From a virus: a stretch of 29,453 bases of DNA. The stretch spans positions 1-29,453 of IMG/VR virus record IMGVR_UViG_3300025671_000352, one strand, 5' to 3'. A program made the position numbers and the translations under genes. Positions 1-24,952 of this stretch are shown one piece after another. The notes under the pieces were generated by a model that saw nothing but the letters and a program-made list of their open reading frames with translations, had not been told where the DNA came from and did not search any database. Numbering within the stretch: the stretch's first letter is position 1; every line of letters begins with the position of its first letter.

Positions 1-440
1 GCAGTATCAGTATCCATACCAGCTCTTTTAATTGATTCATCTTGTAATTGTTCAGTATATAAAGCCTCTGCCTCTTCAGGAGTTGTTTTCCCTTGTACTT
101 CAGGAAATAAATCTTGAGAAACTTTAGGTAATTCCATCTGTCTTATTTCTTGAAGAGCAGCAGCTGAAGGTTGAATGTCTGTTTCTGTAGTTAAATCAGC
201 ACGAGCTAAATTCTCAGGACTTGGTCCTCGTTCTGGAATTATAGGTTCTTCTGCTACAGGTGTAGCTTGAGGTACTGCTTCTCTTAAGGTATCAGTTGGA
301 GTTTCTAATTCAAATTGCTTATCAGCAATACCAGTCACTGCTTGTTGTATATTTTCTTCGGCTCGTTGAGTCTCATCTGCAACACTACGCTTCTGCCGCA
401 TAGCATCATAGAAATTAAGACCTCCACTTCTTTTTCCCAT
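1..440 (-). CDS. N-terminal part of an unidentified virion-module gene (3' end outside window)
   Basis: An open frame begins at the ATG at 440 and runs 146 codons to the window edge without a stop. It starts MGKRSGGLNFYDAMRQKRSV, then DETQRAEENIQQAVTGIADK, followed by acidic, Pro-rich, apparently disordered sequence (PQATPVAEEPIIPERGPSPE) and a helix (EEAEALYTEQLQDESIKRAG). The GGAG ribosome-binding sequence is in the last codons of the 1309-aa gene, whose stop is two bases before this ATG. I recognise no family. Its place at the end of the internal-protein group suggests another virion protein. Confidence 0.65.
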   Translation of the reverse strand, partial: MGKRSGGLNFYDAMRQKRSVADETQRAEENIQQAVTGIADKQFELETPTDTLREAVPQATPVAEEPIIPERGPSPENLARADLTTETDIQPSAAALQEIRQMELPKVSQDLFPEVQGKTTPEEAEALYTEQLQDESIKRAGMDTDT

Positions 441-442
441 AT

Positions 443-3400
443 CTATTCTCCTTTCTCTAAAAACGGATATGGATCAGGGGATTTCCCATGTACCAAATCA
501 GTTATAATATTTCTAACTGGAGTTATAGGACCAACTCCAGGTATTAATTTTGTTGCATGACTAGCTGCTCTCTCTGTTTCTCCTTTACCAAGAGCACCTA
601 TTGCCTTCATAGCAGTTCCAATAGATCTTACTGTAGGTGATCCACCTACTGTTTCTCCAAATAATCTATCTGTAATACTTTCATCCCTACTCCTATATAA
701 TGGTAATGCACCTTGGAGTAATCTTTCTCCTGTTCCTAATAGACCAGAAGATTGTAATGCTCTTTGTAATAGCTGTGCATCGCTAAGATAAGGTGTACTG
801 CCTCCAAACTTAATAAAGTCTTTAAGCCATTGAGAACCCCCAGCTATTGCCATCATAGTTACCATCATAGCGAATGTATTATATTGCATTCGAGGACTAC
901 CATTTTTTAAATAATCATTGTATAATTTAGGTACAATATTAGCTGTAAATGTAGAGATAAAGCCATTAAACTGTACAAATAATTGATAATGAGGATCTTG
1001 AAAGAATAAAGGTCTATTAAATGCTTGAGGATTTTGAACTCTGTCATTGACAAAATTCCAAGTACCTATATTCATTTGTTGATCTACGAATTCATAATCA
1101 GCATCCGACATTGAATCAGTAGCATCTGAAAATGTGTCAAAGATTACTGGATTATTATAACGATTATAGACTTCAATCATACCTTCAACATCTAAACCCA
1201 TGTTAGCTAGCTGTCTATATACCTCTAATTGATCTTGATTGAATTCAACATCAGCAGGTTTAGCTGCTAATATTCTTATTCTGTCACCTACAAATCCAGA
1301 TACAGCAGATGCAGCTATTGCCCTTTGTAATTGGGTAACTCCAGCAATCCCTGAGTATTTAAAGAATTGTTTTTGCCACCAAGCTTTTGTTACATCTGTT
1401 TCACCAAGACCAAGTCGAGTTGCTATAGCTGCATCATCATTGAACAAACCGCTTTTTGTTAGTCTTTGAAAACTCTCCTTATCAATATTAGCATGAGGAG
1501 GATATCCTATTTTATTATTGATTTTCATTTGAGCTATAGATTTAAATATCTCTTTAACTTCTTTTACACCAGCAAGGATACCGTTTTGTACGTCTTTACC
1601 GCCCCTACCTTGATATAATATCATAGCAAATTCTGGAAAAGAACTTATAGCCGACAAAGGTAGACCTACCATTGCAGCATAGAAGGCTGCGGTCTGTTGG
1701 AATGCTGCAAGCTTTCTATTCTTAATTCGATTAAAGTTACCTGTACCAGCATCAATAATATTTTTAGTATGAAAAGCTATTTCATCTACTTCCTCTTTTG
1801 TTAATCCTTCATTTTCCATTTTGCTTAAAAGATAATCTATATTCTTACCTCCAGCTCCAAAATACTCTGTATAGGCTGAGTACTTTGCAGTTTGATTTGC
1901 TGTGTTAATAGCATTTTGAAGTATATTAGTATTAGCAAATTTAGAATAACCTTTTTTAGACCATAAATCAATTCCATCTTTATTATTTCCAGGAACATAT
2001 TCAATACCTTCTACAGTAGAAAAGTCTGTTGCATCTTCATTATTAGATAACTTACTATATAAAACATCTATTTCTGCTTCAGTCATCTTTCCATTCTTAC
2101 GCATGAACTCATAGAACTCTTTTCTATTTTGTCTAACTTTTTGCCAATCCCAAGCCTGTCTATTTAACCATTCGTCTTTATCTCTAGCCAAATCTACTCT
2201 ATCTTTACCTTGACTCTTATAAGTATCATTTCTTATTTTATATTCAAGATCAGAAAATGCTTTTAATTCTGCTATAGTTTGTTCTATAGCATTTATATCT
2301 GAAGGAGTCATATTAGTAGTATCGCCTGCAGTATATCTTCTAATCATGTCTGAAATCTTTTGAGAGTTAGTTACACTATCTCTCATTCCAAATCTTTTAA
2401 ATACACGTTTAGGATTAATAGTATCAATAAGATTAGATCTTAGATAAGCTTCTTGGCTTTGAACATCTCTACCTGAATACATTTTACCAGCAACAGTACC
2501 TACAAGAGCTGCAAGTTTTCTTACTGATTCTGATCGTCTTAGTTTATCCGCAGAGAATGCGGTTAACGAAGAAGAACGATATAACTCAGGAAAAAACCTA
2601 GAAGGGTTTTTAAATTTATTTAAAAAACCTCCTCGTTCTATCTTACCTGACTGTGCTCTATCTGAAGTAACACTTGAATCACTAGTTGGTTTTATATTAA
2701 CTGTATTTTTATTTAAATCATCAACTAAATTTCTAATAGCACCTTGTGGTCCTAACTCTTGAGCAACACGGTCTGTACGACCTAGCTCTCCGATACGACC
2801 AGTCTCTAATCCTCGTTTGGTCGCATATGCATCTCCTGCAGCTATTAAGCCTCCAGCAGTACTAAATCCAGAACCTAATGTACCACCAGCAACTGCTGAA
2901 GATATTAGAAGATTAGTAAATTCATTAGGATTAAAGTTCTCCTTAAGACCTCCTTGAGACATTCCCATAGAAGATAAATAACCAATACCTTCTTGAGAAG
3001 CTTCTGTTATAGATTCTGCAGCTCCACCGACTCCAGCTCGTCTTAAAAGATCTCTAAGTATTCCACTATTATTTATATTATCAGAAGCAAAGTTACCCAT
3101 GCCTTCAATGGTTTCTTTAATTACTTTTTTACCTTCTTTAGCCATTAATACTTTAGCAGCTTCAGGAGTTATATTTCTTTGGTTTGCTAAGGCTTGTATA
3201 ACCTTTTTTCTTCCTTCTGTAGTCAACATATCAGAAGGTTTCATAATAGCTTTTAAACCCAAACGATCAAGCATAGCCATAGCAGTACCAGCCATGATAG
3301 CACCAGTTGCTTCTGCTCTTCCTTTTGGACCTTTAATATCATTCCAAACTTGACCAGCAAATGTTGCTCCATGAGAACCATATGCTATACCAGCACTTAA

Positions 3401-4372
3401 ACCTCCAGTAAATGGAGCAAGTAAACTTCCAGCTGTTAATGTAACTAAATATGGTGCAGACATAGCGAGATTATTAGACATAAAATACCATGCATCCATC
3501 AAGCTATCTACATCTCTGTAGTCAACTCCTTTTAATGCAGGCATCTCTGCTAAATCTTCCTTGGCTAATCGGACTTTGCTTTCACCGTACTTCTTTAATG
3601 TATCACTTCCTAATTGAACACCCATTAATTCAGCAAATCCAGCTAAACCAGTAGCCATACCTTGCCAACCTGTATTCCAAGCAGATGTCATTTGATTATA
3701 CGCAACACCTTCTTCTGTTCTATCTGACTTTCTAAAGTCTATACCGCTAAAAGGAATACTTCGAGCATCGTATTTACCTGATTGTACTATATTAATAGCT
3801 TTTCTATGATCATCTTCATTAGTCAAGTCAAGACCCATTTGATCCGCAACTACTTCTTTTACTGATTGAGCATACTCATTTTCATTTATAGCACTGTCTT
3901 TAAATAACACTGGTTTAGATTTAACTGCACTCATTTCTTCTTGAACAATATCTTCATAAAGACGTTTGCCTCGAAGCTCTTTAGATAATCTACCTGCCTG
4001 TATTGCTTGAATACCTTCTTCATCTGTGAATTGATTCATATCAATCACACCTGCTTGATAAAGAGTATTCGTTAAATCATCTCCAAATTCATTTTTAATT
4101 CTTATTCTTTTTCTTCCAAAGGAATCTGTACGACCTAAGTCTTCAATAACATTGAATCCGCCAGCTTGAACTATACGTCTAACAGCATCTGTCTGCTCAC
4201 GACCACCAACTTGACCTTGTTTAAAGATTAAACCTTTATCCTTATCTTCAATTATCTTTTCAGTTTCTTTAGCATTATATCCCTCAATACGATAACGCTG
4301 ATCACCATCCGAAATAGTATCTGCATCTACTAACTGAAAAAATTTTCCGTCAGTTGTTTCTATATCAGCCAT
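443..4372 (-). CDS. Large internal virion protein with N-terminal SNase-like domain
   Basis: A 1309-aa protein. I start it at 4372 (MADIETTDGK) because AGGAGG lies five bases upstream; a longer in-frame start at 4438 has no such site and adds MEFLTHPYRG-type sequence. Residues about 9-112 resemble staphylococcal nuclease: D16-A-D18-T, R28-I-E-G-Y-N-A-K-E36 and D83-S-F-G-R87 match the staphylococcal D19/D21, R35...E43 and D83-x-Y-G-R87 with identical spacing. Residues 302-345 and others are small-residue hydrophobic segments that may enter membranes (SAPYLVTLTAGSLLAPFTGG). The rest is long, mainly helical sequence, as in T7 gp16-like core proteins. Size and position suggest it is ejected with the DNA. 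The nuclease-like assignment is motif-based. Whether it cuts DNA, or acts only as a binding fold, is open. Confidence 0.75.
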   Translation of the reverse strand: MADIETTDGKFFQLVDADTISDGDQRYRIEGYNAKETEKIIEDKDKGLIFKQGQVGGREQTDAVRRIVQAGGFNVIEDLGRTDSFGRKRIRIKNEFGDDLTNTLYQAGVIDMNQFTDEEGIQAIQAGRLSKELRGKRLYEDIVQEEMSAVKSKPVLFKDSAINENEYAQSVKEVVADQMGLDLTNEDDHRKAINIVQSGKYDARSIPFSGIDFRKSDRTEEGVAYNQMTSAWNTGWQGMATGLAGFAELMGVQLGSDTLKKYGESKVRLAKEDLAEMPALKGVDYRDVDSLMDAWYFMSNNLAMSAPYLVTLTAGSLLAPFTGGLSAGIAYGSHGATFAGQVWNDIKGPKGRAEATGAIMAGTAMAMLDRLGLKAIMKPSDMLTTEGRKKVIQALANQRNITPEAAKVLMAKEGKKVIKETIEGMGNFASDNINNSGILRDLLRRAGVGGAAESITEASQEGIGYLSSMGMSQGGLKENFNPNEFTNLLISSAVAGGTLGSGFSTAGGLIAAGDAYATKRGLETGRIGELGRTDRVAQELGPQGAIRNLVDDLNKNTVNIKPTSDSSVTSDRAQSGKIERGGFLNKFKNPSRFFPELYRSSSLTAFSADKLRRSESVRKLAALVGTVAGKMYSGRDVQSQEAYLRSNLIDTINPKRVFKRFGMRDSVTNSQKISDMIRRYTAGDTTNMTPSDINAIEQTIAELKAFSDLEYKIRNDTYKSQGKDRVDLARDKDEWLNRQAWDWQKVRQNRKEFYEFMRKNGKMTEAEIDVLYSKLSNNEDATDFSTVEGIEYVPGNNKDGIDLWSKKGYSKFANTNILQNAINTANQTAKYSAYTEYFGAGGKNIDYLLSKMENEGLTKEEVDEIAFHTKNIIDAGTGNFNRIKNRKLAAFQQTAAFYAAMVGLPLSAISSFPEFAMILYQGRGGKDVQNGILAGVKEVKEIFKSIAQMKINNKIGYPPHANIDKESFQRLTKSGLFNDDAAIATRLGLGETDVTKAWWQKQFFKYSGIAGVTQLQRAIAASAVSGFVGDRIRILAAKPADVEFNQDQLEVYRQLANMGLDVEGMIEVYNRYNNPVIFDTFSDATDSMSDADYEFVDQQMNIGTWNFVNDRVQNPQAFNRPLFFQDPHYQLFVQFNGFISTFTANIVPKLYNDYLKNGSPRMQYNTFAMMVTMMAIAGGSQWLKDFIKFGGSTPYLSDAQLLQRALQSSGLLGTGERLLQGALPLYRSRDESITDRLFGETVGGSPTVRSIGTAMKAIGALGKGETERAASHATKLIPGVGPITPVRNIITDLVHGKSPDPYPFLEKGE

Positions 4373-4447: not shown

Positions 4448-6979
4448 TTATTGTTTTAGTAGCTCTTCAATCTTATCAGGAGAGGTTCTGCTTACCCATA
4501 AAGTAAATGCAGACCATTTATTTCCATCTTTAGATTTTTCTGCTGCTTCTTTAATCAGGACTTCTCTTTCCGCTTTAGGAACTTTCTTATATGCTTCAAG
4601 AGTACCTTGCCAATCATTATAATATTCTTCTGCGTATGCAGGAGCTCTGGTATTTTTATTTTCCATACCATCCTTAATCATTTTATTAATCTTGGCTAAG
4701 TTTTCAGGAGACGTTCCTGAAATCATTGCTTGACTAATACCTGTTAATGGTGTAAATACTTCCATATTAACAAAGGATTCTAAATCATTAGGCTCAATAT
4801 CTATTTTACCTGCCTTGTAATCCGATTGTGCTTGAATAAATTTACCCATGGCTCTTTCAACTGCCATTTGCATTTCAGGTGCATCATTAATATTAACTCC
4901 ATTCTGTCTAAGTATTTTTCTATAAATGGAATTAGCTTTAGTTCCTATTGGTTTATATGCAACATAACCTTTATCTCCTTGATTATAATTATTTTGTTTA
5001 TTAATATAATCAGCATAATCTTTACCAAATGTATCATAACGTTTAGCTACCGTAGCATCTCCATGAACTTTTTCATCAAACTTTTCTACACCTTTTATAC
5101 TAGATACAGGATATCTTATACCTTCTATTTGAACATATTCTATTTTATCATCACCTTTAAATGTAGTCGCTTTACCATATCCAGGAATATAAACATTACC
5201 TGAAACAGTTTGTAAACTAAGTGATTTACCTACAGGGATAAGATCATTTACATCTGCTGATTTGGCATATTTAGCAAGAGAATCAGCTGTAAACCTATCT
5301 GCAAAGTCTTTATCAAGCACTGCTTTTTTAGCATACTCTTGATTAGCTTCAACACGCTTAACATAATTTTTCATGCTATAATTTAAAGAAGCACCGTGAC
5401 CGTAACCCATAGCACGAGAGCCAGCGTATATCATTGCCATCCTTGCAAGTTCTTCACCATCAAACATACTTGAAAAAGCATCTTTAAAATAACCCATGGA
5501 TTTATCTAAGACAACACCACCAACTTCTTTGGCTTTATCTATAAATTTATCAGCAGGAGTTTTTCCTGGATTCTTAACCATATAATCAGCTACTTCTTCT
5601 TTAGTCATTACTGTTTGATCAATGTCTTCTTCATTAGCTAATTGATCTAAAATAGCTTGAGCTGCTTTTTTCTTTTTCTCTTCATCTAGCTGTTTTTGTT
5701 TCTCTTTTTCACTATCAAGCATAAAGTCTTTTCCTTTAGACTTTTCTTTTTCAACCATTTCTTTATGAGTTTTATTTAAACCTTTTAGATTCTTTTCTTC
5801 TTTTAATAATTCATTATATTCTTTAGAAGCTGACTCATACTTTTCTATTTGTGAAGGGTTAGGTTGACCTCCTTCTTTCTTTATATTGCTAATTAACTTT
5901 TCCATATAATCAAGTTGATTCTTAGCATCTTTAATTTGAGGTTGAATCTTTTCTAAAGCCTGACTACTTATTCTTTGATTTACTTCATTGGCACTTGGGC
6001 TTAAAAAATCTAAAACAGGATACATCTTATCATATAATGTACCTGTAGGTTTTCCAGGTGCATCTGAAGGTACAGGAACACCAAATATTTCTAATGGATA
6101 TTTAGCTGCTCTTTCAAGTTGTTTTAAACTCTCAGGTGACACTGCTTCTCTTTGAAGTTGTTCGCTATATTGTAGATTTTTATTGAATGCTTCAGGAATT
6201 CCTTTAATATAATCTACTGCTTGATCGATATATCCTTTTTCTTTAGGAACTTCTTTATCACCAGTGCTAGCTTGAGCCGACATAAATCCGCTTTCCATAG
6301 GTGTATCATCAAATACTACTGGTCTAGGTTCAGGCATAGGAACTTCATTTTCATTCATAGCTGTTTTTATTTTAGGTACATATGCTTGACCTTCAGGTCC
6401 AAGATTACCTTTCTTAACATTACCTACACCTGAATGGTATGACTGAAGTATTTCATCTAAACTAAAATCAGGATTATATTTTTCAATTCCTTTAAGATAT
6501 GCATCTGCAAATGCTCTAGATTTTTCAGGATTGAATCTATCTTCAGAAGAAATAGGTGCAACACCAAATCCAGGATTTAAACCTGTTGTTTCCATTATTT
6601 GATAAGGACCACTAGCTCCTACAGGAGATACTGCATTTACATCTCCACCTGATTCTACTTGCATAAGAGCATCTAATACTCTAGGAGTTATCTTACTTCC
6701 TTCAGCATGATAACTAGGTATTGGACCACCCTGTTCTTTTTGAATAACACGACCCATGTCATTAAGTTTATCGAGCATAGGTTGTACTCCAGGAAGCCTT
6801 GAAGCTTCTGCATTAACTACATTCTCTCCAGGAGTAAGCATAGCTGGTACTGTGTCAGTTCCCTTTGGCTTAAAAATAGATGGGTCTGGTTTAGGTATTT
6901 CTTGAAGAGAAGGCACATCAAACTCGTAGGAAAACGTATTCCCATACCTATCTTTTTCTGTATACTTTTTAATGTGCAT
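4448..6979 (-). CDS. Internal virion protein with lytic transglycosylase domain
   Basis: An 843-aa protein. The N-terminal part contains FKPKGTDTVPAMLTPGENVV (36-55), a sequence typical of tape-measure-like phage proteins, and GGPIPSYHAEGS (84-95). Residues about 97-205 are a soluble lytic transglycosylase domain: catalytic E109 in LMQVESGGD, then AVSPVGASGPYQIM, SYHSGVGNVKKG and QAYVPKI. Such domains in T7 gp16-type proteins open peptidoglycan locally during DNA entry. Residues about 350-455 are a highly charged coiled coil (KEKQKQLDEEKKKKAAQAIL). The C-terminal half is mixed alpha/beta without a recognised motif. AGGAG lies just upstream of the ATG. It sits before the larger internal protein, as expected for an ejection module. 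Confidence 0.85.
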   Translation of the reverse strand: MHIKKYTEKDRYGNTFSYEFDVPSLQEIPKPDPSIFKPKGTDTVPAMLTPGENVVNAEASRLPGVQPMLDKLNDMGRVIQKEQGGPIPSYHAEGSKITPRVLDALMQVESGGDVNAVSPVGASGPYQIMETTGLNPGFGVAPISSEDRFNPEKSRAFADAYLKGIEKYNPDFSLDEILQSYHSGVGNVKKGNLGPEGQAYVPKIKTAMNENEVPMPEPRPVVFDDTPMESGFMSAQASTGDKEVPKEKGYIDQAVDYIKGIPEAFNKNLQYSEQLQREAVSPESLKQLERAAKYPLEIFGVPVPSDAPGKPTGTLYDKMYPVLDFLSPSANEVNQRISSQALEKIQPQIKDAKNQLDYMEKLISNIKKEGGQPNPSQIEKYESASKEYNELLKEEKNLKGLNKTHKEMVEKEKSKGKDFMLDSEKEKQKQLDEEKKKKAAQAILDQLANEEDIDQTVMTKEEVADYMVKNPGKTPADKFIDKAKEVGGVVLDKSMGYFKDAFSSMFDGEELARMAMIYAGSRAMGYGHGASLNYSMKNYVKRVEANQEYAKKAVLDKDFADRFTADSLAKYAKSADVNDLIPVGKSLSLQTVSGNVYIPGYGKATTFKGDDKIEYVQIEGIRYPVSSIKGVEKFDEKVHGDATVAKRYDTFGKDYADYINKQNNYNQGDKGYVAYKPIGTKANSIYRKILRQNGVNINDAPEMQMAVERAMGKFIQAQSDYKAGKIDIEPNDLESFVNMEVFTPLTGISQAMISGTSPENLAKINKMIKDGMENKNTRAPAYAEEYYNDWQGTLEAYKKVPKAEREVLIKEAAEKSKDGNKWSAFTLWVSRTSPDKIEELLKQ

Positions 6980-6988
6980 AATATTCTC

Positions 6989-7633
6989 CTAAGTACTCGG
7001 TACGTTATCTGGTCTCATCATATTATAAGGACTATATGTTGTGTCAGCACCAAGAGGGTCTACCATTAAAGGTGGTCTCATTGTTGGTGTTGGAGGTATT
7101 TGACCTTGAGCTGCTTCAGTCATACTCTCAGCGACTATTTCATTGTATAGTTGATCTGGATTAATCATTGGAGGAGCTTGAGGCTCTGGTTCATTCATCA
7201 TCAAAGCTCTTGCTTGCTCTGGTGTCATAGTTCCTTCAGCACGATACTGTAGACTCAATGGTCCAACCATTCCGCCTTCATTAAACAATCCTAGAGCTTT
7301 ACCAGCAAGTAATCCTGCACCAACATAAGGAACTGCTGTACCTAATGCCGCCATTCCTGCACCCATACCTGCTCCAGCACCACCAGCCATTGGTCCAAGT
7401 ACTGCTCCTCCTTCAATAGCACTACCTACTACAGGAGCTGCTGATCCAGATAAGGCAGAAGTTATGCCAGCTTGTCCAGCATCTAATGCACCTTCCATTG
7501 CTCTTTGTTTAGCCATATCCATCATCTGACCACCCATTCCTTTTTCTTGTTGAGCAAGAGGAGCTGCTTGTGCTTGATATTGCCTTATCTGCATTTTTTC
7601 TTTTTCATTTGGGCTTGCTAATTCAAGTTCCAT
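6989..7633 (-). CDS. Internal virion-like protein with glycine-zipper membrane segment
   Basis: A 214-aa protein. A polar N-terminal helix (EKEKMQIRQYQAQAAPLAQQ) is followed from about 50 to 115 by small-residue hydrophobic sequence (GSAIEGGAVLGPMAGGAGAG, then GMAALGTAVPYVGAGLLAGK) that could insert into or span a membrane. The motif NEGGMVGPLSLQYRAEGT (118-135) has the 'NeGG-v-p----Y-a-G' signature common in tape-measure-like and internal phage proteins. The C-terminal part is Pro- and Met-rich. Its TAA is separated by nine bases from the transglycosylase gene's ATG. A role in forming the ejection channel is inferred. Confidence 0.65.
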   Translation of the reverse strand: MELELASPNEKEKMQIRQYQAQAAPLAQQEKGMGGQMMDMAKQRAMEGALDAGQAGITSALSGSAAPVVGSAIEGGAVLGPMAGGAGAGMGAGMAALGTAVPYVGAGLLAGKALGLFNEGGMVGPLSLQYRAEGTMTPEQARALMMNEPEPQAPPMINPDQLYNEIVAESMTEAAQGQIPPTPTMRPPLMVDPLGADTTYSPYNMMRPDNVPST

Positions 7634-14351: not shown

Positions 14352-16100
14352 CTAAGCACACTCTCTAATGCCAGTTGTTGGGTCGATAAAGCAAGCTTCA
14401 ACCTTGTCTTCTTCTTGAGCCACTTCCTCAACTTCGCTAGATACCTTCTCTTTTTCTTCCACGGTCTCGTTGAAGATTCCGAATCGTTTTCCATTAATAC
14501 GGAACGTAGTACACCCTTTCGCCCCACCTTTCCATGCATTAACATATACTTGTTTAAATGAATCATAGTCCACATCACCACTTACGTTACAGGTTTTTGA
14601 ACAGGCACTGTCAATATAGTGTTGAGCTAATAATAACACTTTAAGATGATCATTAACACTAATACTATCTGCAGTACGACCTTCTACTCCATGAGAGTAA
14701 GCGTAATCTTTTACGGTCTCGACAATCGGACCATCAAAAGTTTGTATAGTTCTATCATACTTATGACTAAAGACAGGTTCAATTCCTCCACTAACGTTAT
14801 CACCTATAATACTAATAGTACCTGTAGGTGCGATTGATGTAAGATGGCTATTACGTATTCCGTGTTCTCTTATAAGACTCTGTACAGAAGCTGGTAACGA
14901 CCTAATATAATTACTTTTAAGATAATCTTTTCTAAACAATGGAAAAGATCCTTTATCTTTTGCTAATAAAGCAGAGGCTTTATAGCAGTTATCTCTTAGA
15001 CATGCAAAGATTTTCTCTGCCCATGTCATAAATTCTTTTGATGCATATGGATAACCAAGCATTTCACCAGCATTTGCCATACCAGTAACACCTAATCCCA
15101 TACGTCTTTTATTCTTTGCTTCATCTTCTTGTGCTTTTAATGGATAGATAGTTCTATCAACGACATTATCCATGGCTCTCACAACTTCAGGTATATCTTT
15201 TTTAAATTGATCAAAGTTAAAAACATAACCACTACTATCTTTCTCAAGATATTTAGTCAGGTTAAATGATCCTAATAAACAAGCACCATAGGCTGGTAGT
15301 GGTTGTTCACCACAAGGATTAGTTGCATAGATCTCTTCACAATACCATAAGTTATTCATCTCTTTAATACGATCAATAAAGAGAACTCCAGGCTCTGCCC
15401 AATCCCAAGTCGAAGACATTATCTCATCCCATACCATTTGGGCTGAAAGAGTGCCACGATGCTCACCATTAAAGTAAAGGTCGTAGTCAGACCCACTGTC
15501 CAGAGCTTCCATAAATGCATCTGTAATCCCGACTGATATGTTAAACCCTGTAAGCTTATCATTATTACGTTTAGCTCGTACAAAGTCAAGTATATCAGGA
15601 TGGTCAATCCTAAGCACACCCATTTGTGCTCCTCTCCTGTGACCAGAACTAGCAATCGTTTGACACACTGCATCAAACACTTGCATAAAAGAAATAGGAC
15701 CACTAGACTTTGAATCGAGAGACTTAATATGATCGCCCCTAGGTCTGAGCTTACTAAAATCGTATCCAATGCCTCCTCCCTTTCTCATGGTCTCAGCAGC
15801 TTCACTTGCTCTCTGCATGATAGATTCCATGCTATCGTCTATATCGCCTGATACAAAACAATTATAAGCAGTAGTAATACGATCAGAGCCTATGGCTGAT
15901 TGTACTCGACCAGCAGGTAAGAATCTCATTTCTCCTAATATATCTTCTAGTACGAATCTATGTTCGTCTCCATCTGAAAGTGTTCTTGCTATCCTCTTTA
16001 TCTTATCATCGAAGGTCTCTCCCTTCTGTCTGTATTTCATTTCATCTATTTCTTGAGCGATGGTCATAGTTGGACCTTCGTAGTTTCTATTTCTTAGCAT
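14352..16100 (-). CDS. nrdJ: Class II (adenosylcobalamin-dependent) ribonucleotide reductase
   Basis: A 582-aa enzyme that reduces ribonucleotides to deoxyribonucleotides using a B12-derived radical. The key residues are all present: C81 (YNCFVSG) and C274 (YGACLLGSFNL) as the active-site redox pair, and N261-P-C263-G-E265 (NPCGEQPLP), in which C263 is the thiyl radical site. The phosphate-binding loop is SIAPTGTISIIG (422-433). C570 and C581 near the C-terminus likely regenerate the active site. The 11-residue gap between C263 and C274 fits class II enzymes. It lacks an obvious ATP-cone and is shorter than many bacterial NrdJ proteins. An AGAGGT precedes the ATG. It is the only clear metabolic gene here and sits between lysozyme and tail genes. 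Confidence 0.93.
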   Translation of the reverse strand: MLRNRNYEGPTMTIAQEIDEMKYRQKGETFDDKIKRIARTLSDGDEHRFVLEDILGEMRFLPAGRVQSAIGSDRITTAYNCFVSGDIDDSMESIMQRASEAAETMRKGGGIGYDFSKLRPRGDHIKSLDSKSSGPISFMQVFDAVCQTIASSGHRRGAQMGVLRIDHPDILDFVRAKRNNDKLTGFNISVGITDAFMEALDSGSDYDLYFNGEHRGTLSAQMVWDEIMSSTWDWAEPGVLFIDRIKEMNNLWYCEEIYATNPCGEQPLPAYGACLLGSFNLTKYLEKDSSGYVFNFDQFKKDIPEVVRAMDNVVDRTIYPLKAQEDEAKNKRRMGLGVTGMANAGEMLGYPYASKEFMTWAEKIFACLRDNCYKASALLAKDKGSFPLFRKDYLKSNYIRSLPASVQSLIREHGIRNSHLTSIAPTGTISIIGDNVSGGIEPVFSHKYDRTIQTFDGPIVETVKDYAYSHGVEGRTADSISVNDHLKVLLLAQHYIDSACSKTCNVSGDVDYDSFKQVYVNAWKGGAKGCTTFRINGKRFGIFNETVEEKEKVSSEVEEVAQEEDKVEACFIDPTTGIRECA

Positions 16101-19452: not shown

Positions 19453-21312
19453 TTATTCTCCATTTTCTAAGGCTGTTATTCGTGCTTCTAATTCTTGTAT
19501 TGTCTTTACGAGTAAAGGTACAAGTTTACTTTGGTCTATACCTTGATAGACAGGGTTGCCATCAGCATCTACTGCATCTTTATTTCCAGTAATTGCTTCA
19601 GGTACAACTGACTGCACCTCATGTGCTAAGAAACCATCTACTAAAGTATTTGTATCATCGTGATTCCAACTAAATCTTGCAGGTTGAAGTTGCTTTAATC
19701 TTGTTGTAGCATCAAAATCATATGTTACATTTTGCTTTAATCTGTAATCAGATGATGTGTTATAGGCTACTGTTGAAGCATTAATGTGACTAATTGCTCC
19801 TGCACCTGTTCCATTATCCGAAGTAAATAAAACAAAGTTACCAGTATTTGCTGAGTAATTACTTCTTAAACCAAGACAAGGGCGAGTACTTAAATTTTCT
19901 GTTACATTTAATCTTCCATTAGTGTGTGCAGTGGTGTTAAGAAGCATACGACCACTGCTGTCTATACGCATACGTCCTGAGCCATTAGTGTAAAATATCA
20001 TAGCATCACTGCTATGGTCATATTCAAAAGCACCTCTAAATGGAGAAGATGTATTATCAGCAAATTGTATTCTTCCACCATTACCAGTACCACTGGCAAT
20101 AGTTATACCATTTTCTCCAGATGTTGTTCCTACAACTAAATTGTCAACAAGAGAGCCAAAGTCTTCTGGGTTTGAATTTCCAATGCCAACATTACCTGCT
20201 GATGTTATATTTAATGAATTAACACCTACTTGATAAAACTTAGTTACTCCTGAACCTGTTGCTTGAATAACTAAATCATTATCTGTACTGCCTGTAATAT
20301 ACTCTGAAGCACCTATTCTACCTGCTGAATTTGCATCTTTTGATACTGTAATAAAACCACCAGTTACGTCTAACTTAGATAAGGGTACTGTTTTACCAAT
20401 ACCTACATTGCCACTGCTGTCTATACGCATACGTTCTGAAGTAGCAGTATAAAGTATCATAGCATCACTACTATGAGAATACTCTATAGCACCTACAAAT
20501 GAACCTGCTCCTGTAGCATTATCAGAAAATACAAATCTGCCACTATTACCAGTTCCAGAAGCAATCGTAATTCCATTTTCTCCTGAAGTCGTACCTACTA
20601 CAAGATTATCTGCATATTGATTAAAAGAACTAGGACTATCAGTACCAATACCAACATTGCCACTGCTGTCTATACGCATACGTTCTGTAATTCCAGAACC
20701 TGCATTAGTAAAGAATTGAAGTTGACCAGTATTTGCACTCGGTTTATCAAATACTATTTTACTGTTTTGAAAATTGTAAACTGTATTCCACGCACCTATT
20801 GTTCCATCAACACTTGCACTAGCACTGTCAGATAAAAAAGTAATGTCACTGTTATTTGCACCAAAAAGCAATTCATGACTGGATGGTGTATTCCCACCAC
20901 CATTACCACTACCAATTTGCAATTTACCTCTTACATCAGTAGTACCAATACCAACATTGCCACCTGCTGACATATCAATTCTCATAGCTTCTATAAGAGA
21001 AATACCATCAACACCTTTGAAAATAATATCTTTGTCACTCTGAGAAGATTTAATAATAAAATCATTAGATGAATTTATAAATTCTGCGTGTGTAACACCT
21101 CCATCTAAAAGATTGATACTACCACTGTCTGCATCAAGACTAATTGTTCCTGCTGAGTCAAGAGTTAAAGCACTAGTTGAATCTATTTCTGTTGCATCAA
21201 TAGTTATATTGTCTACAGCCACTGCACCTGCTGTCACTGTACCTGTTACATCAAGAGTACCACTGAGGTTTGCATCAGTGACTATCTTGGATATGTCTTT
21301 TGCTCTTGTCAT
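19453..21312 (-). CDS. Tail fibre with duplicated shaft module and S74 chaperone
   Basis: A 619-aa protein. It starts MTRAKDISKIVTDANLSGTL, a fibre anchor, followed by beta-rich shaft sequence (TLDSAGTISLDADSGSINLL). The motif NVGIG ... ERMRIDSSGN recurs, and a block of about 80 residues (NLVVGTTSGENGITIASGTG to the next RMRIDSSG) is present twice. The C-terminus is a classical S74 intramolecular chaperone. S521-D522 in SSDYRLKQN is the expected self-cleavage site, followed by LKQLQPARFSWNHDD, DGFLAHEVQSVVPEA, DQSKLVPLLVKTIQELEARI and a short coiled coil. S74 domains of this type (T5 L-shaped fibre, endosialidase) trimerise fibres and are then released. The host ligand cannot be inferred. Confidence 0.88.
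   Translation of the reverse strand: MTRAKDISKIVTDANLSGTLDVTGTVTAGAVAVDNITIDATEIDSTSALTLDSAGTISLDADSGSINLLDGGVTHAEFINSSNDFIIKSSQSDKDIIFKGVDGISLIEAMRIDMSAGGNVGIGTTDVRGKLQIGSGNGGGNTPSSHELLFGANNSDITFLSDSASASVDGTIGAWNTVYNFQNSKIVFDKPSANTGQLQFFTNAGSGITERMRIDSSGNVGIGTDSPSSFNQYADNLVVGTTSGENGITIASGTGNSGRFVFSDNATGAGSFVGAIEYSHSSDAMILYTATSERMRIDSSGNVGIGKTVPLSKLDVTGGFITVSKDANSAGRIGASEYITGSTDNDLVIQATGSGVTKFYQVGVNSLNITSAGNVGIGNSNPEDFGSLVDNLVVGTTSGENGITIASGTGNGGRIQFADNTSSPFRGAFEYDHSSDAMIFYTNGSGRMRIDSSGRMLLNTTAHTNGRLNVTENLSTRPCLGLRSNYSANTGNFVLFTSDNGTGAGAISHINASTVAYNTSSDYRLKQNVTYDFDATTRLKQLQPARFSWNHDDTNTLVDGFLAHEVQSVVPEAITGNKDAVDADGNPVYQGIDQSKLVPLLVKTIQELEARITALENGE
19456..19461 (-). promoter_or_regulatory. 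Ribosome-binding site fixing the start of the 103-aa gene
   Basis: GGAGAA on the minus strand, four bases before the ATG at 19451 and lying in the last codons and stop of the 619-aa fibre gene. It favours the MAVTWTI start over the ATG at 19463. Confidence 0.6.
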
Positions 21313-21577: not shown

Positions 21578-24500
21578 TTATTCTCCTTTTAAAGTTGCTA
21601 TTTCAGATTGTAGATTTGTTATTTGTGCAGATAATTCCTTAACTGCATTTACTAAGTACCAAGTCATATTATCTGGAGTAACAGTCAAAACTCCTGTACT
21701 TTCTTCTTTAACCATATCTGGTAATACAGTTTGTATTTCTTGTGCTATAACACCTAACTGAAGACCTTGTTTATTAACAACTGCTGAAGCAGGATTATCA
21801 AAATCAGTAATTTCATCTTCTGTACGATACTCAAAGTTTCTTACTTGAATTTGATTAATAGCATCAAGACCTGTGTTGTTGTCTACGATATTCTTTTTTA
21901 TTCTTTCATCAGAAGTAGTAGACCAAGTTGATGAGTTATTGCCTTGATAAACACCCCCACCATTAGGTGTAATAAAAAAGGTATTTGCACCTTTACCTGC
22001 TACGTTTGATGTTGAAAGTATTCCTTCATTTGATACTGATGAGCTTGATGGAGCACAAGCATAACCTATCATTATATTATTACTACCAGTATCAGCATGT
22101 GCACAAGCATAACCAACTCCAATATTATTACTGCCAGTTTGTCCACCATCCATCAACTTGCCTACCATGACATTTTGAGTGCCAGTAGTTATTGTATCCC
22201 CTGCTCTCATACCAATGCAGGTATTACCAGCACCTGATGAGTTCGCAGCCAAAGCCTCATCTCCTACTGCTACATTTGTATGACCAGCAGTACTTGACTT
22301 TAAAGTACCATAGCCTATTGTTACATTTTGATAACCTGTAGTTAATGACCTTTGAGAACCATTTCCTATAGCTATGTTTCTATAACCAGATGAAAGAAGT
22401 GCCAACGGTCCTTCTATAACACCATCTACCCAAGACCCTATGCCAATATTGTTACTGCCACTAACAGCATTAGTAGCACCTCCTATAGCACTAGAACCTA
22501 ATGCAGTATTAGAAAGACCAGTTGTAATTCTGTAACCTGCATTTGTGCCTAATCCTGTATTCCTATTAGCTGTAGTATTATATAAGGATTGATATCCAAC
22601 TGCTGTGACGTTATTTGAGTCTGTAGCAGTGTATAAGGCTCTATAGCCTAATGCTAATGAATTACCTGTAGTGTTATTTCTGCTGTAACTTGCTTGAAAC
22701 CCTACTGCTGTGTTGTTGGGTGCTGTAGTGTTTGCATTTAATGCCTCATATCCAACTGCTGTGTTGGCAGATGCTGTGGTGTTGCTACGAAGAGCAAGTA
22801 CACCAAGTGCCGTATTATTACTTCCTGTTGTGTTTGCAGGTAAAGCACCACCACCAAAAGCAGCATTGCGTATCCCTGTAGTGTTAGCTGACATAGAGCC
22901 ACCTGTAAGAGCAGTAATACCAGAACCTACAGCAGTATTGTCTGATGCAGTATTTGCTCCAAGTGCTTCAGTTCCTATGGCTATGTTGTTATCACCTGAT
23001 ATATTAACATCAAGTGCTTGATAACCTATAGCCAAATTATTTTCGCCATCTGTATTTGAGTATAGTGCTTTAAACCCAAGTGCTGTATTGCGAGGACCTG
23101 TAGTGTTGTAAGACAAAGCACCAACACCCATAGCAGTGTTAAAAATACCAGTTGTATTATATCTTAAAGCTCCCTCAGTATTTCCTGTCCACGTTCCTCC
23201 AACGCCAACATTTCCATTACCTGTTGTATTGGCAGATAAAACGTCTGAACCAACTGCTGTAATTCCAAGACCAGTAGTGTTGGCGTACCCTGCTTTATAC
23301 CCAACTGCTGTGTTAAAAGATGCTGTGGTGTTGGAAGAAAGTGCTTGATAGCCCACTACTGTATTGTTAGATGCTGTAGTATTTGAAGCCAATGCTTCGT
23401 GACCAACTGCTGTATTATTTGCTCCTGTTGTAGTTGAATACCCTGCACTAAGACCAACAGTTGTATTGGCTGTGCCTGTTGATTGCTGTCTAGAAGCATA
23501 TCTACCAATAGCAGTCAAAGTACCTGTAGTATTATTATACGCTGCTTGATAGCCTACAGCAGTGTTACTATTTGCTGTGGTGTTAGCTGCTAAAGCATCA
23601 CGACCTACAGCAGTATTATTTGAGCCTGTTGTATTTGCAGTAAGTGCAGGGCTACCTACTGCTGTGTTATTTGTTCCAGTAGATGTTTGGTACATAGTAT
23701 ACGAGCCGACTGCTACGTTGTTACTTGCGTTAATTGCTCTTAAAGCAAAATCGCCTAATGCTACGTTGTAATTACCTGTTATATTTGTATAAAGACTGCC
23801 GTGTCCAAGTGCAGTATTCCTTGTACCAGTAGTATTACTATATCCTGCTTGATAGCCAACAACTGTATTGTTAGAAGCTGTGGTGTTTGAACGTAATGAT
23901 TGTGACCCTAAAGAAACATTAAAGCCACCTGTTGTATTTGAAAACCCTGAACTTAAACCAACAAATGTATTATTACTTCCAGTTGTGTTTACTTGACCTG
24001 CATATCCTCCAAGAAACGTACCAGCAGTTGCAGTGTTTGCATTTCCTGCATTATATCCAACTGCTGTATTGTTATCTGCTGTGGTGTTGCTACGAAGTGA
24101 ACCAAAACCTAATCCTACATTATTTGCACCTGTGCTATTGTCCTCTAGTGATGCATCGCCAATGGCAGTGTTGCTTTCTCCTGTTGTATTATTAAATAGG
24201 CTTCGGCGACCAACAGCAGTGTTATAACTAGCAGTTGTGTTTGACTCTAGTGCCTGATATCCAACCCCTACATTACGAGTGCCTGTTGTGTTTGTAGTTA
24301 GTGCTTGATACCCCAATGCTGTGTTTTCAGACGCTGTGGTGTTTGATTTAAGTGACTGATGCCCTACTGCTGTATTGAAAGAACCAGTAGTTACAAAACG
24401 TAGTGCAGAAGCACCAACACCTGTGTTAGATGCACCTGATGTCATCGGCTGCATACTGAAATCGCCAAGAGCCGTGTTGTAAGTTCCACTAATAGAACCA

Positions 24501-24952
24501 TTCATAGCAGCATCACCCAAAGCAACATTCCCTGTACCAACTGGATAATTACCATCCAACTTAATAGTACCACCATCTACTGACAGGTTATTTGATAATG
24601 TTGTTGCACCTGTAACTGCAAGTGTACCTGCCATAGTAACGTTACCATCAAACGTACCACCATCTGCCTTGCTTACTGTATCAGCTACAGAGAATACATC
24701 ATATGTTACAATCTCTACTATATCACTAACAGCAGCACCTTCTCCTAATACAATAGATGTACCACTAGTGGCAGTGTAATCTGCATCACCTAGCTTAACA
24801 CCGTTTCTGTACACATCAACGTAGTTGCTGTCTTTATAGCTTAATGAAATACCTTCTGACCCTGCACCACTGAATGTTGTTTGTGATGCTGTGGCAGTAT
24901 AAGTATGTTTTTGTCTAACTCCGTTGGAAGGAGATACTCCTATATATGGCAT
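21578..24952 (-). CDS. Giant tail fibre: 17-residue beta-roll repeats and S74 chaperone
   Basis: An 1124-aa protein. Residues 1-90 form an N-terminal anchoring domain (MPYIGVSPSNGVRQKHTYTA, then YVDVYRNGVKLGDADYT). Residues about 142-975 are nearly fifty consecutive units of 17 residues with consensus N-T-A-V-G-x-x-A-L-x-x-N-T-T-G-x-N. The NTAVG core resembles the trimeric left-handed beta-roll repeats of YadA-type adhesin heads. From about residue 1012 there is an intramolecular chaperone of the endosialidase/peptidase S74 type: SDERIKKNI with the Ser-Asp self-cleavage pair at 1014-1015, then LGVIAQEIQTVLPDMV and a C-terminal coiled coil ending in ATLKGE. In characterised S74 proteins this domain trimerises the fibre and cuts itself off. 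Here both the domain and the Ser-Asp pair are visible, while cleavage is inferred. Confidence 0.9.
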   Translation of the reverse strand: MPYIGVSPSNGVRQKHTYTATASQTTFSGAGSEGISLSYKDSNYVDVYRNGVKLGDADYTATSGTSIVLGEGAAVSDIVEIVTYDVFSVADTVSKADGGTFDGNVTMAGTLAVTGATTLSNNLSVDGGTIKLDGNYPVGTGNVALGDAAMNGSISGTYNTALGDFSMQPMTSGASNTGVGASALRFVTTGSFNTAVGHQSLKSNTTASENTALGYQALTTNTTGTRNVGVGYQALESNTTASYNTAVGRRSLFNNTTGESNTAIGDASLEDNSTGANNVGLGFGSLRSNTTADNNTAVGYNAGNANTATAGTFLGGYAGQVNTTGSNNTFVGLSSGFSNTTGGFNVSLGSQSLRSNTTASNNTVVGYQAGYSNTTGTRNTALGHGSLYTNITGNYNVALGDFALRAINASNNVAVGSYTMYQTSTGTNNTAVGSPALTANTTGSNNTAVGRDALAANTTANSNTAVGYQAAYNNTTGTLTAIGRYASRQQSTGTANTTVGLSAGYSTTTGANNTAVGHEALASNTTASNNTVVGYQALSSNTTASFNTAVGYKAGYANTTGLGITAVGSDVLSANTTGNGNVGVGGTWTGNTEGALRYNTTGIFNTAMGVGALSYNTTGPRNTALGFKALYSNTDGENNLAIGYQALDVNISGDNNIAIGTEALGANTASDNTAVGSGITALTGGSMSANTTGIRNAAFGGGALPANTTGSNNTALGVLALRSNTTASANTAVGYEALNANTTAPNNTAVGFQASYSRNNTTGNSLALGYRALYTATDSNNVTAVGYQSLYNTTANRNTGLGTNAGYRITTGLSNTALGSSAIGGATNAVSGSNNIGIGSWVDGVIEGPLALLSSGYRNIAIGNGSQRSLTTGYQNVTIGYGTLKSSTAGHTNVAVGDEALAANSSGAGNTCIGMRAGDTITTGTQNVMVGKLMDGGQTGSNNIGVGYACAHADTGSNNIMIGYACAPSSSSVSNEGILSTSNVAGKGANTFFITPNGGGVYQGNNSSTWSTTSDERIKKNIVDNNTGLDAINQIQVRNFEYRTEDEITDFDNPASAVVNKQGLQLGVIAQEIQTVLPDMVKEESTGVLTVTPDNMTWYLVNAVKELSAQITNLQSEIATLKGE
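22028..24529 (-). repeat. Array of about 49 coding repeats, 17 residues (51 bp) each
   Basis: The array makes up the shaft of the 1124-aa fibre. Units begin with N-[TVI]-[AGT]-[VLI]-G and end in a Thr/Ser-Gly/Ala turn, mostly exactly 17 residues, with a few of 16. Three units are 24 residues long. DNA copies are diverged rather than identical, so this is an old array held in register at protein level, not a recent expansion. Confidence 0.9.

Follow-up and report, generated by a model that had tools for sequence, protein, structure and literature searches.

A staphylococcal-nuclease-type head on a predicted gp16-type ejection protein in a family from aquatic viruses of bacteria

A very divergent staphylococcal nuclease (SNase, PF00565) domain forms residues 9-112 of a 1309-residue viral protein, the remainder of which is predicted, from homology, modelled structure and gene order, to make it a gp16-type ejection (internal virion) protein. 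The gene occupies 446..4372 and the domain 4037..4348, both on the minus strand, of the window, i.e. the whole 29,453-base viral record analysed here, whose main genes lie on that strand. The preferred reading, which is given a probability of roughly two in three, is that this gp16-type protein carries a true SNase head with a conserved active site, is ejected, and cuts nucleic acid outside the channel. The family and fold of the head, the conservation of its active site, the homology of the scaffold and the composition of the gene cassette are all computed results and are described in turn; the proposed action at entry follows.

The SNase head and its active site

The 1309-residue reading frame begins with an ATG at 4372 that has a ribosome-binding site rated good, AAAGGAGG, directly on its 5' side; the gene assignment draws on this Shine-Dalgarno start together with phrog_6958 and tf gp51, which are discussed below. 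A sequence-only reading of the same DNA had placed an SNase-like domain at exactly 4037-4348, corresponding to residues 9-112 of the frame, without naming the strand, and the residues it had singled out are present in the protein: R28 and E36 at a spacing of eight, a TDSFGRK segment containing D83 and R87, and a D-x-D-T motif made up of D16, D18 and T19.

Standard profile scans miss the head, the window protein giving no SNase match in Pfam, NCBIfam or PHROG and falling under the Pfam cut-off, so that relatives were collected for a profile and the case for SNase rests on profile-profile and structural comparison. The relatives comprise twelve close homologues, further ones found by profile, and gp34 of the cultured Roseobacter phage CRP-7, and yielded an alignment of 38 non-identical proteins in which the head is complete and identity goes down to ~20%. 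In profile scans PF00565 appears faintly (E 0.13) in two relatives, and its curated cut-off is passed outright by two divergent relatives; a 13-row head profile searched against PDB sequences with hmmsearch gave chance matches only. When the head-family profile is aligned by hhalign with one of 79 bacterial SNases, the score is 90.5 (probability 98.3, E 1.4e-14), as compared with at most 19.9 for 100 column shuffles and 17.6 for the reversed profile. An AlphaFold2 model of residues 1-150 (pLDDT 68) displays the SNase order of elements, b1-3, a1, b4-5, a2, a3. The best 50 PDB matches listed by Foldseek for this model are all staphylococcal nuclease (top E 1.5e-3, probability 1.0), and VIA-align places SNase in 49 of 50 rows at Z ~7 with 91-115 residues aligned. 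A match to SNase or the OB-fold, the outcome on which the domain assignment had been staked beforehand, was thus found by profile and by structure, and the assignment is borne out by these and by residue conservation. The probability that the resemblance is fortuitous and that an SNase domain is absent is close to nil; the profile-profile score relative to its shuffled controls refutes it, as do the structural matches and the invariant residues, and chance resemblance was rejected once the profile and structure tests had left nothing in its favour.

Only five columns of the 150-residue head are fully invariant among the 38 relatives, and all are SNase active-site positions: D16 (4325..4327, minus strand, as are all codons given here), equivalent to SNase D19; D18 (4319..4321), equivalent to the metal ligand D21; R28 (4289..4291), equivalent to R35; E36 (4265..4267), equivalent to the general base E43; and R87 (4112..4114), equivalent to SNase R87. 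The catalytic R35, E43 and R87 equivalents, whose conservation across phage homologues had been proposed as a check on the domain, are therefore kept in 38 of 38 proteins together with metal ligand D21. The same five columns stay invariant after filtering to less than 60% identity, which leaves 23 rows with a median pairwise identity of 29%, and the hypergeometric probability of five invariant columns falling within the six SNase active-site positions is ~1e-8. The loop preceding R87 bears a small insertion, D-x-S-(K/E)-G-x-R, in six members (L052, L056, L057, L058, L067 and L068) and part of it in L065 and L069; R87 is kept.

The SNase D40 position is N33 in the window protein (4274..4276); of the 38 heads, 23 have Asn here, the window's included, 14 have Asp and one has Arg. 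The Asn had been taken for the loss of a calcium ligand, a view that does not hold: in a sample of 65 ordinary bacterial PF00565 members that keep R35 and E43, 36 carry Asp and 29 Asn. This sample was drawn without motif selection, consists mostly of best-scoring members from two phyla and is not uniform. A tree made from the remainder of the protein requires at least two state changes at position 40, three on the best tree, with the other active-site residues fixed. Because it is common in bacterial SNases and switches on the tree, Asn40 is a normal alternative that gives no sign of a dead enzyme; equating Asn40 with a dead enzyme was rejected on the bacterial base rate. An SNase fold that has decayed, or that serves structure only, with nuclease function lost, could account for the Asn at the window's D40 ligand position and for a score under the Pfam cut-off, but this is improbable given the frequency of Asn40 among ordinary SNases and the fact that decay would not spare just five active-site columns as the sole invariants. 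The single member with Arg at this position (L065, IMGVR_UViG_3300045738_000290, sequence RQKGIRAPE) also has an upstream protein with no detectable SLT domain, and is possibly an inactive branch.

Scaffold and ejection cassette

The remaining residues, 151-1309 (446..3922, minus strand), form a predicted all-helical ejection-protein scaffold. Residues 825-1193 match phrog_6958, a virion structural protein (E 3e-29), and hhalign of the family aligns residues 227-1242 with gp51 of Pseudomonas phage tf (99.6%, E 4e-24), itself annotated as similar to LUZ24 gp50; scaffold homologues carry the annotation "virion structural protein". On inspection the scaffold homologues of tf, IME271 and KPP25 have no SNase head, which is thus an add-on module. 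AlphaFold2 modelling of residues 151-1309 from a 36-sequence alignment gives an all-helical structure with a pLDDT of 63, exceeding 85 in the model core. Its top four VIA-align rows are all gp16-type ejectosome or core structures, namely PhiM1 8vb2 (Z 10.3), T7 9jyy (Z 9.3), T7 7eyb (Z 7.2) and E1004 9vvp (Z 6.8), with rmsd 5.8-6.8 over 221-276 aligned residues and an unrelated structure next at 5.0, values to be read with the caveats that helical proteins with Z below ~13 may share just a common arrangement and that the model has a pLDDT of 63. Foldseek returned no significant match for the scaffold model. Comparison of T7 gp16 with the scaffold sequence profiles by hhalign gave scores within the shuffled-control range; a sequence link between the two was consequently dropped as unproven and the link to T7 gp16 is a structural one. 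Nevertheless the claim of a giant, gp16-like internal virion protein is backed by the tf gp51 and phrog_6958 homology, the four top-ranked structures and the gene order.

The gene directly upstream, in the gp15 position (4448..6979, minus strand), encodes an 843-residue protein that contains a lytic transglycosylase domain of the SLT type (PF01464, E 3e-13) and also matches phrog_342, an internal virion protein with an endolysin domain (E 3e-10). It is preceded by a gene for a 214-residue Ala/Gly-rich protein (6989..7633, minus strand) that is gp14-like in size, composition and position only and that had no family match in Pfam or PHROG. On the other side of the SNase protein only the 5' part of the gene for a third giant protein is present (3..440, minus strand), recognized by gene order in relatives, the window edge cutting off the rest. 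The window order is accordingly the 214-residue protein, the SLT protein, the SNase protein and then the first part of the third giant. As far as the record fragments extend, 19 relatives have an order of proteins of ~200-320, ~300-560 and ~690-1400 residues, the SNase protein and, immediately downstream of it, a giant of 1175-1500 residues, e.g. L001:11942-15466. The third giant, which gave no convincing Pfam or PHROG match in the relatives tested (two relatives, CRP-7 gp33), is probably a further ejection protein.

An SLT domain is found in the upstream protein of five of the seven relatives tested, and in CRP-7 a Pesticin/lysozyme-like domain takes its place. The gp16-type protein itself has no peptidoglycan-hydrolase head, the SLT domain being in the upstream gene. 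According to a review that calls the domain swappable (PMC8954989), the gp15 homologue can carry the hydrolase head in place of T7 gp16, and such a head is therefore not family-defining. In the present cassette the hydrolase sits in the gp15-position protein, and the vacated N-terminal position of the gp16-type protein holds the SNase nuclease domain.

Elsewhere in the structural region a gene for a ribonucleotide reductase large subunit (14352-16100, minus strand) is found between tail genes; the adenosylcobalamin-dependent ribonucleotide reductase genes of CRP-7 likewise adjoin structural genes. An S74 endosialidase-type chaperone domain closes each of two tail-fibre genes (19453-21312 and 21578-24952, minus strand).

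SNase-headed proteins of this kind form a family in aquatic viruses of bacteria. A tblastn search for other phage records with an SNase head gave CRP-7 only, and no occurrence of the full-length protein in bacterial genomes was confirmed. Foldseek matches to the SNase head in BFVD include four very large viral proteins (A0A6J5NQ80, A0A8S5QTV2, A7KUR9 and A0A516LXN0) of ~965-1342 residues or fragments, some of them labelled nuclease. Giant phage proteins outside the family described here may also bear such heads.

A proposed action at entry and its alternatives

The head is most likely a nuclease capable of catalysis, which the ejectosome delivers; its catalysis, ejection, location and substrate, and its silence in the virion, are steps that we infer. 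The SNase-headed protein would be packed in the phage head, silent in the virion, and would be expelled through the tail before the DNA. The scaffold would then build part of a trans-envelope channel and the SNase head would be exposed outside that channel, either within the envelope or where entry takes place, and at millimolar calcium would cut nucleic acid lying outside the channel, i.e. host or competing DNA or RNA. Calcium at an SNase-active level is supplied by the envelope and by sea water and is absent from the cytoplasm. In T7, gp16 is packaged inside the head and leaves the virion before the DNA, after which its N-terminal portion is found in the periplasm and the C-terminal portion extends into the cytoplasm (PMC8954989), and SNase requires ~0.5-1 mM calcium (PMC5035972). 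The fuller picture is less likely than not: this mostly uncultured podophage lineage as a whole may equip its ejectosome with a nuclease gated by calcium, inactive in the virion and activated in the envelope at entry, which strikes host or rival nucleic acid before phage gene expression. Storing a calcium-dependent nuclease next to the phage genome would be hazardous, a consideration that counts against this best explanation, and SNase fused into engineered virions does destroy the genome at millimolar calcium (PMC5035972).

The roles originally suggested for the domain were degradation of host DNA or RNA, processing of the phage's own DNA end, and DNA gripping, among which the invariant general-base Glu makes cutting more plausible than gripping alone; catalysis is the likelier since the E43 equivalent is strictly invariant and a DNA grip would not require it. 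Action on the phage DNA or its channel, whereby the head trims or frees the leading end or bound DNA, or acts as a core grip with catalysis secondary or lost, is unlikely. A gp16-type scaffold does operate at the DNA channel (PMC8954989) and each SNase head would sit near phage DNA, but the fact that all 38 proteins keep the general-base Glu along with the two Arg and the metal Asp residues points to catalysis, and the related scaffolds of tf, IME271 and KPP25 eject DNA with no SNase head.

Slightly less likely again is degradation of host DNA at entry by the SNase head in replacement of the gene 3 endonuclease I step of T7-like phages. Endonuclease I (PF05367) is encoded by three of four phages lacking the SNase head (T7, tf and IME271) and by none of ten SNase-bearing records (P ~0.01), namely those behind L014, L062, L058, L065, L012, L050, L009, L010, L079 and L051, with the complete CRP-7 included, but nine of these ten are possibly fragments. 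Moreover KPP25 has neither an SNase head nor endonuclease I, and other resolvases could substitute, although endonuclease VII was not found in any of the records checked. Most records encode a T7-like exonuclease whether or not they have an SNase head, and the calcium requirement of SNase far exceeds cytoplasmic levels (PMC5035972).

Novelty and relation to known systems

No paper on an SNase domain in a phage ejection protein or virion was found in the open-licence literature, a scope outside which subscription papers mostly lie. The sequence-only reading had known of no described ejected SNase; this stands as regards papers in that literature and is tempered by the BFVD/UniProt label "SNase-like" on a 1342-residue protein of an uncultured phage. 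What is apparently undescribed, no description having been found, is the combination of a known enzyme family with a known kind of delivery protein. Ejection proteins are known to bear cell-wall hydrolases as their heads, and a nuclease with a strictly conserved active site would add to these a new activity that a podophage delivers before transcription. It would also raise the question of how a DNase or RNase is packed beside its own genome without self-destruction, engineered SNase-capsid fusions serving to kill viruses by just such genome destruction (PMC5035972).

Compared with the SNase/thermonuclease family (PF00565), the head shares the fold, the topology, the D19/D21/R35/E43/(D83)/R87 signature and the occurrence of Asn or Asp at position 40; however, the family members are secreted or stand-alone enzymes, whereas here the SNase is the N-terminal domain of a giant phage protein of the ejection type. 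CRP-7 gp34, from a phage of Roseobacter (RCA), is a cultured homologue over nearly the full length that is ~22% identical, is deposited as a hypothetical protein, and has all of the SNase residues including D40; since a cultured phage carries the full catalytic set, the proposal is testable now. The virion RNA polymerase of phages N4 and DEV is a virion-carried enzyme that is ejected as part of the ejectosome (PMC12633501, PMC10925440), as is proposed here, but in enzyme and architecture it is unrelated to the SNase protein. The tf gp51 protein (LUZ24-like, phrog_6958) is homologous over residues 227-1242 yet has no SNase head. T7 gp16 and the PhiM1 TEP resemble the window protein in size, in the all-helical scaffold for which they are the top structural matches, and in cassette position; they differ in that the hydrolase is here in the upstream gene and that there is no significant sequence match to T7 gp16. 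T7 gp16 too has an enzymatic N-terminal head, but that head is a lytic transglycosylase, and here it is of the nuclease type.
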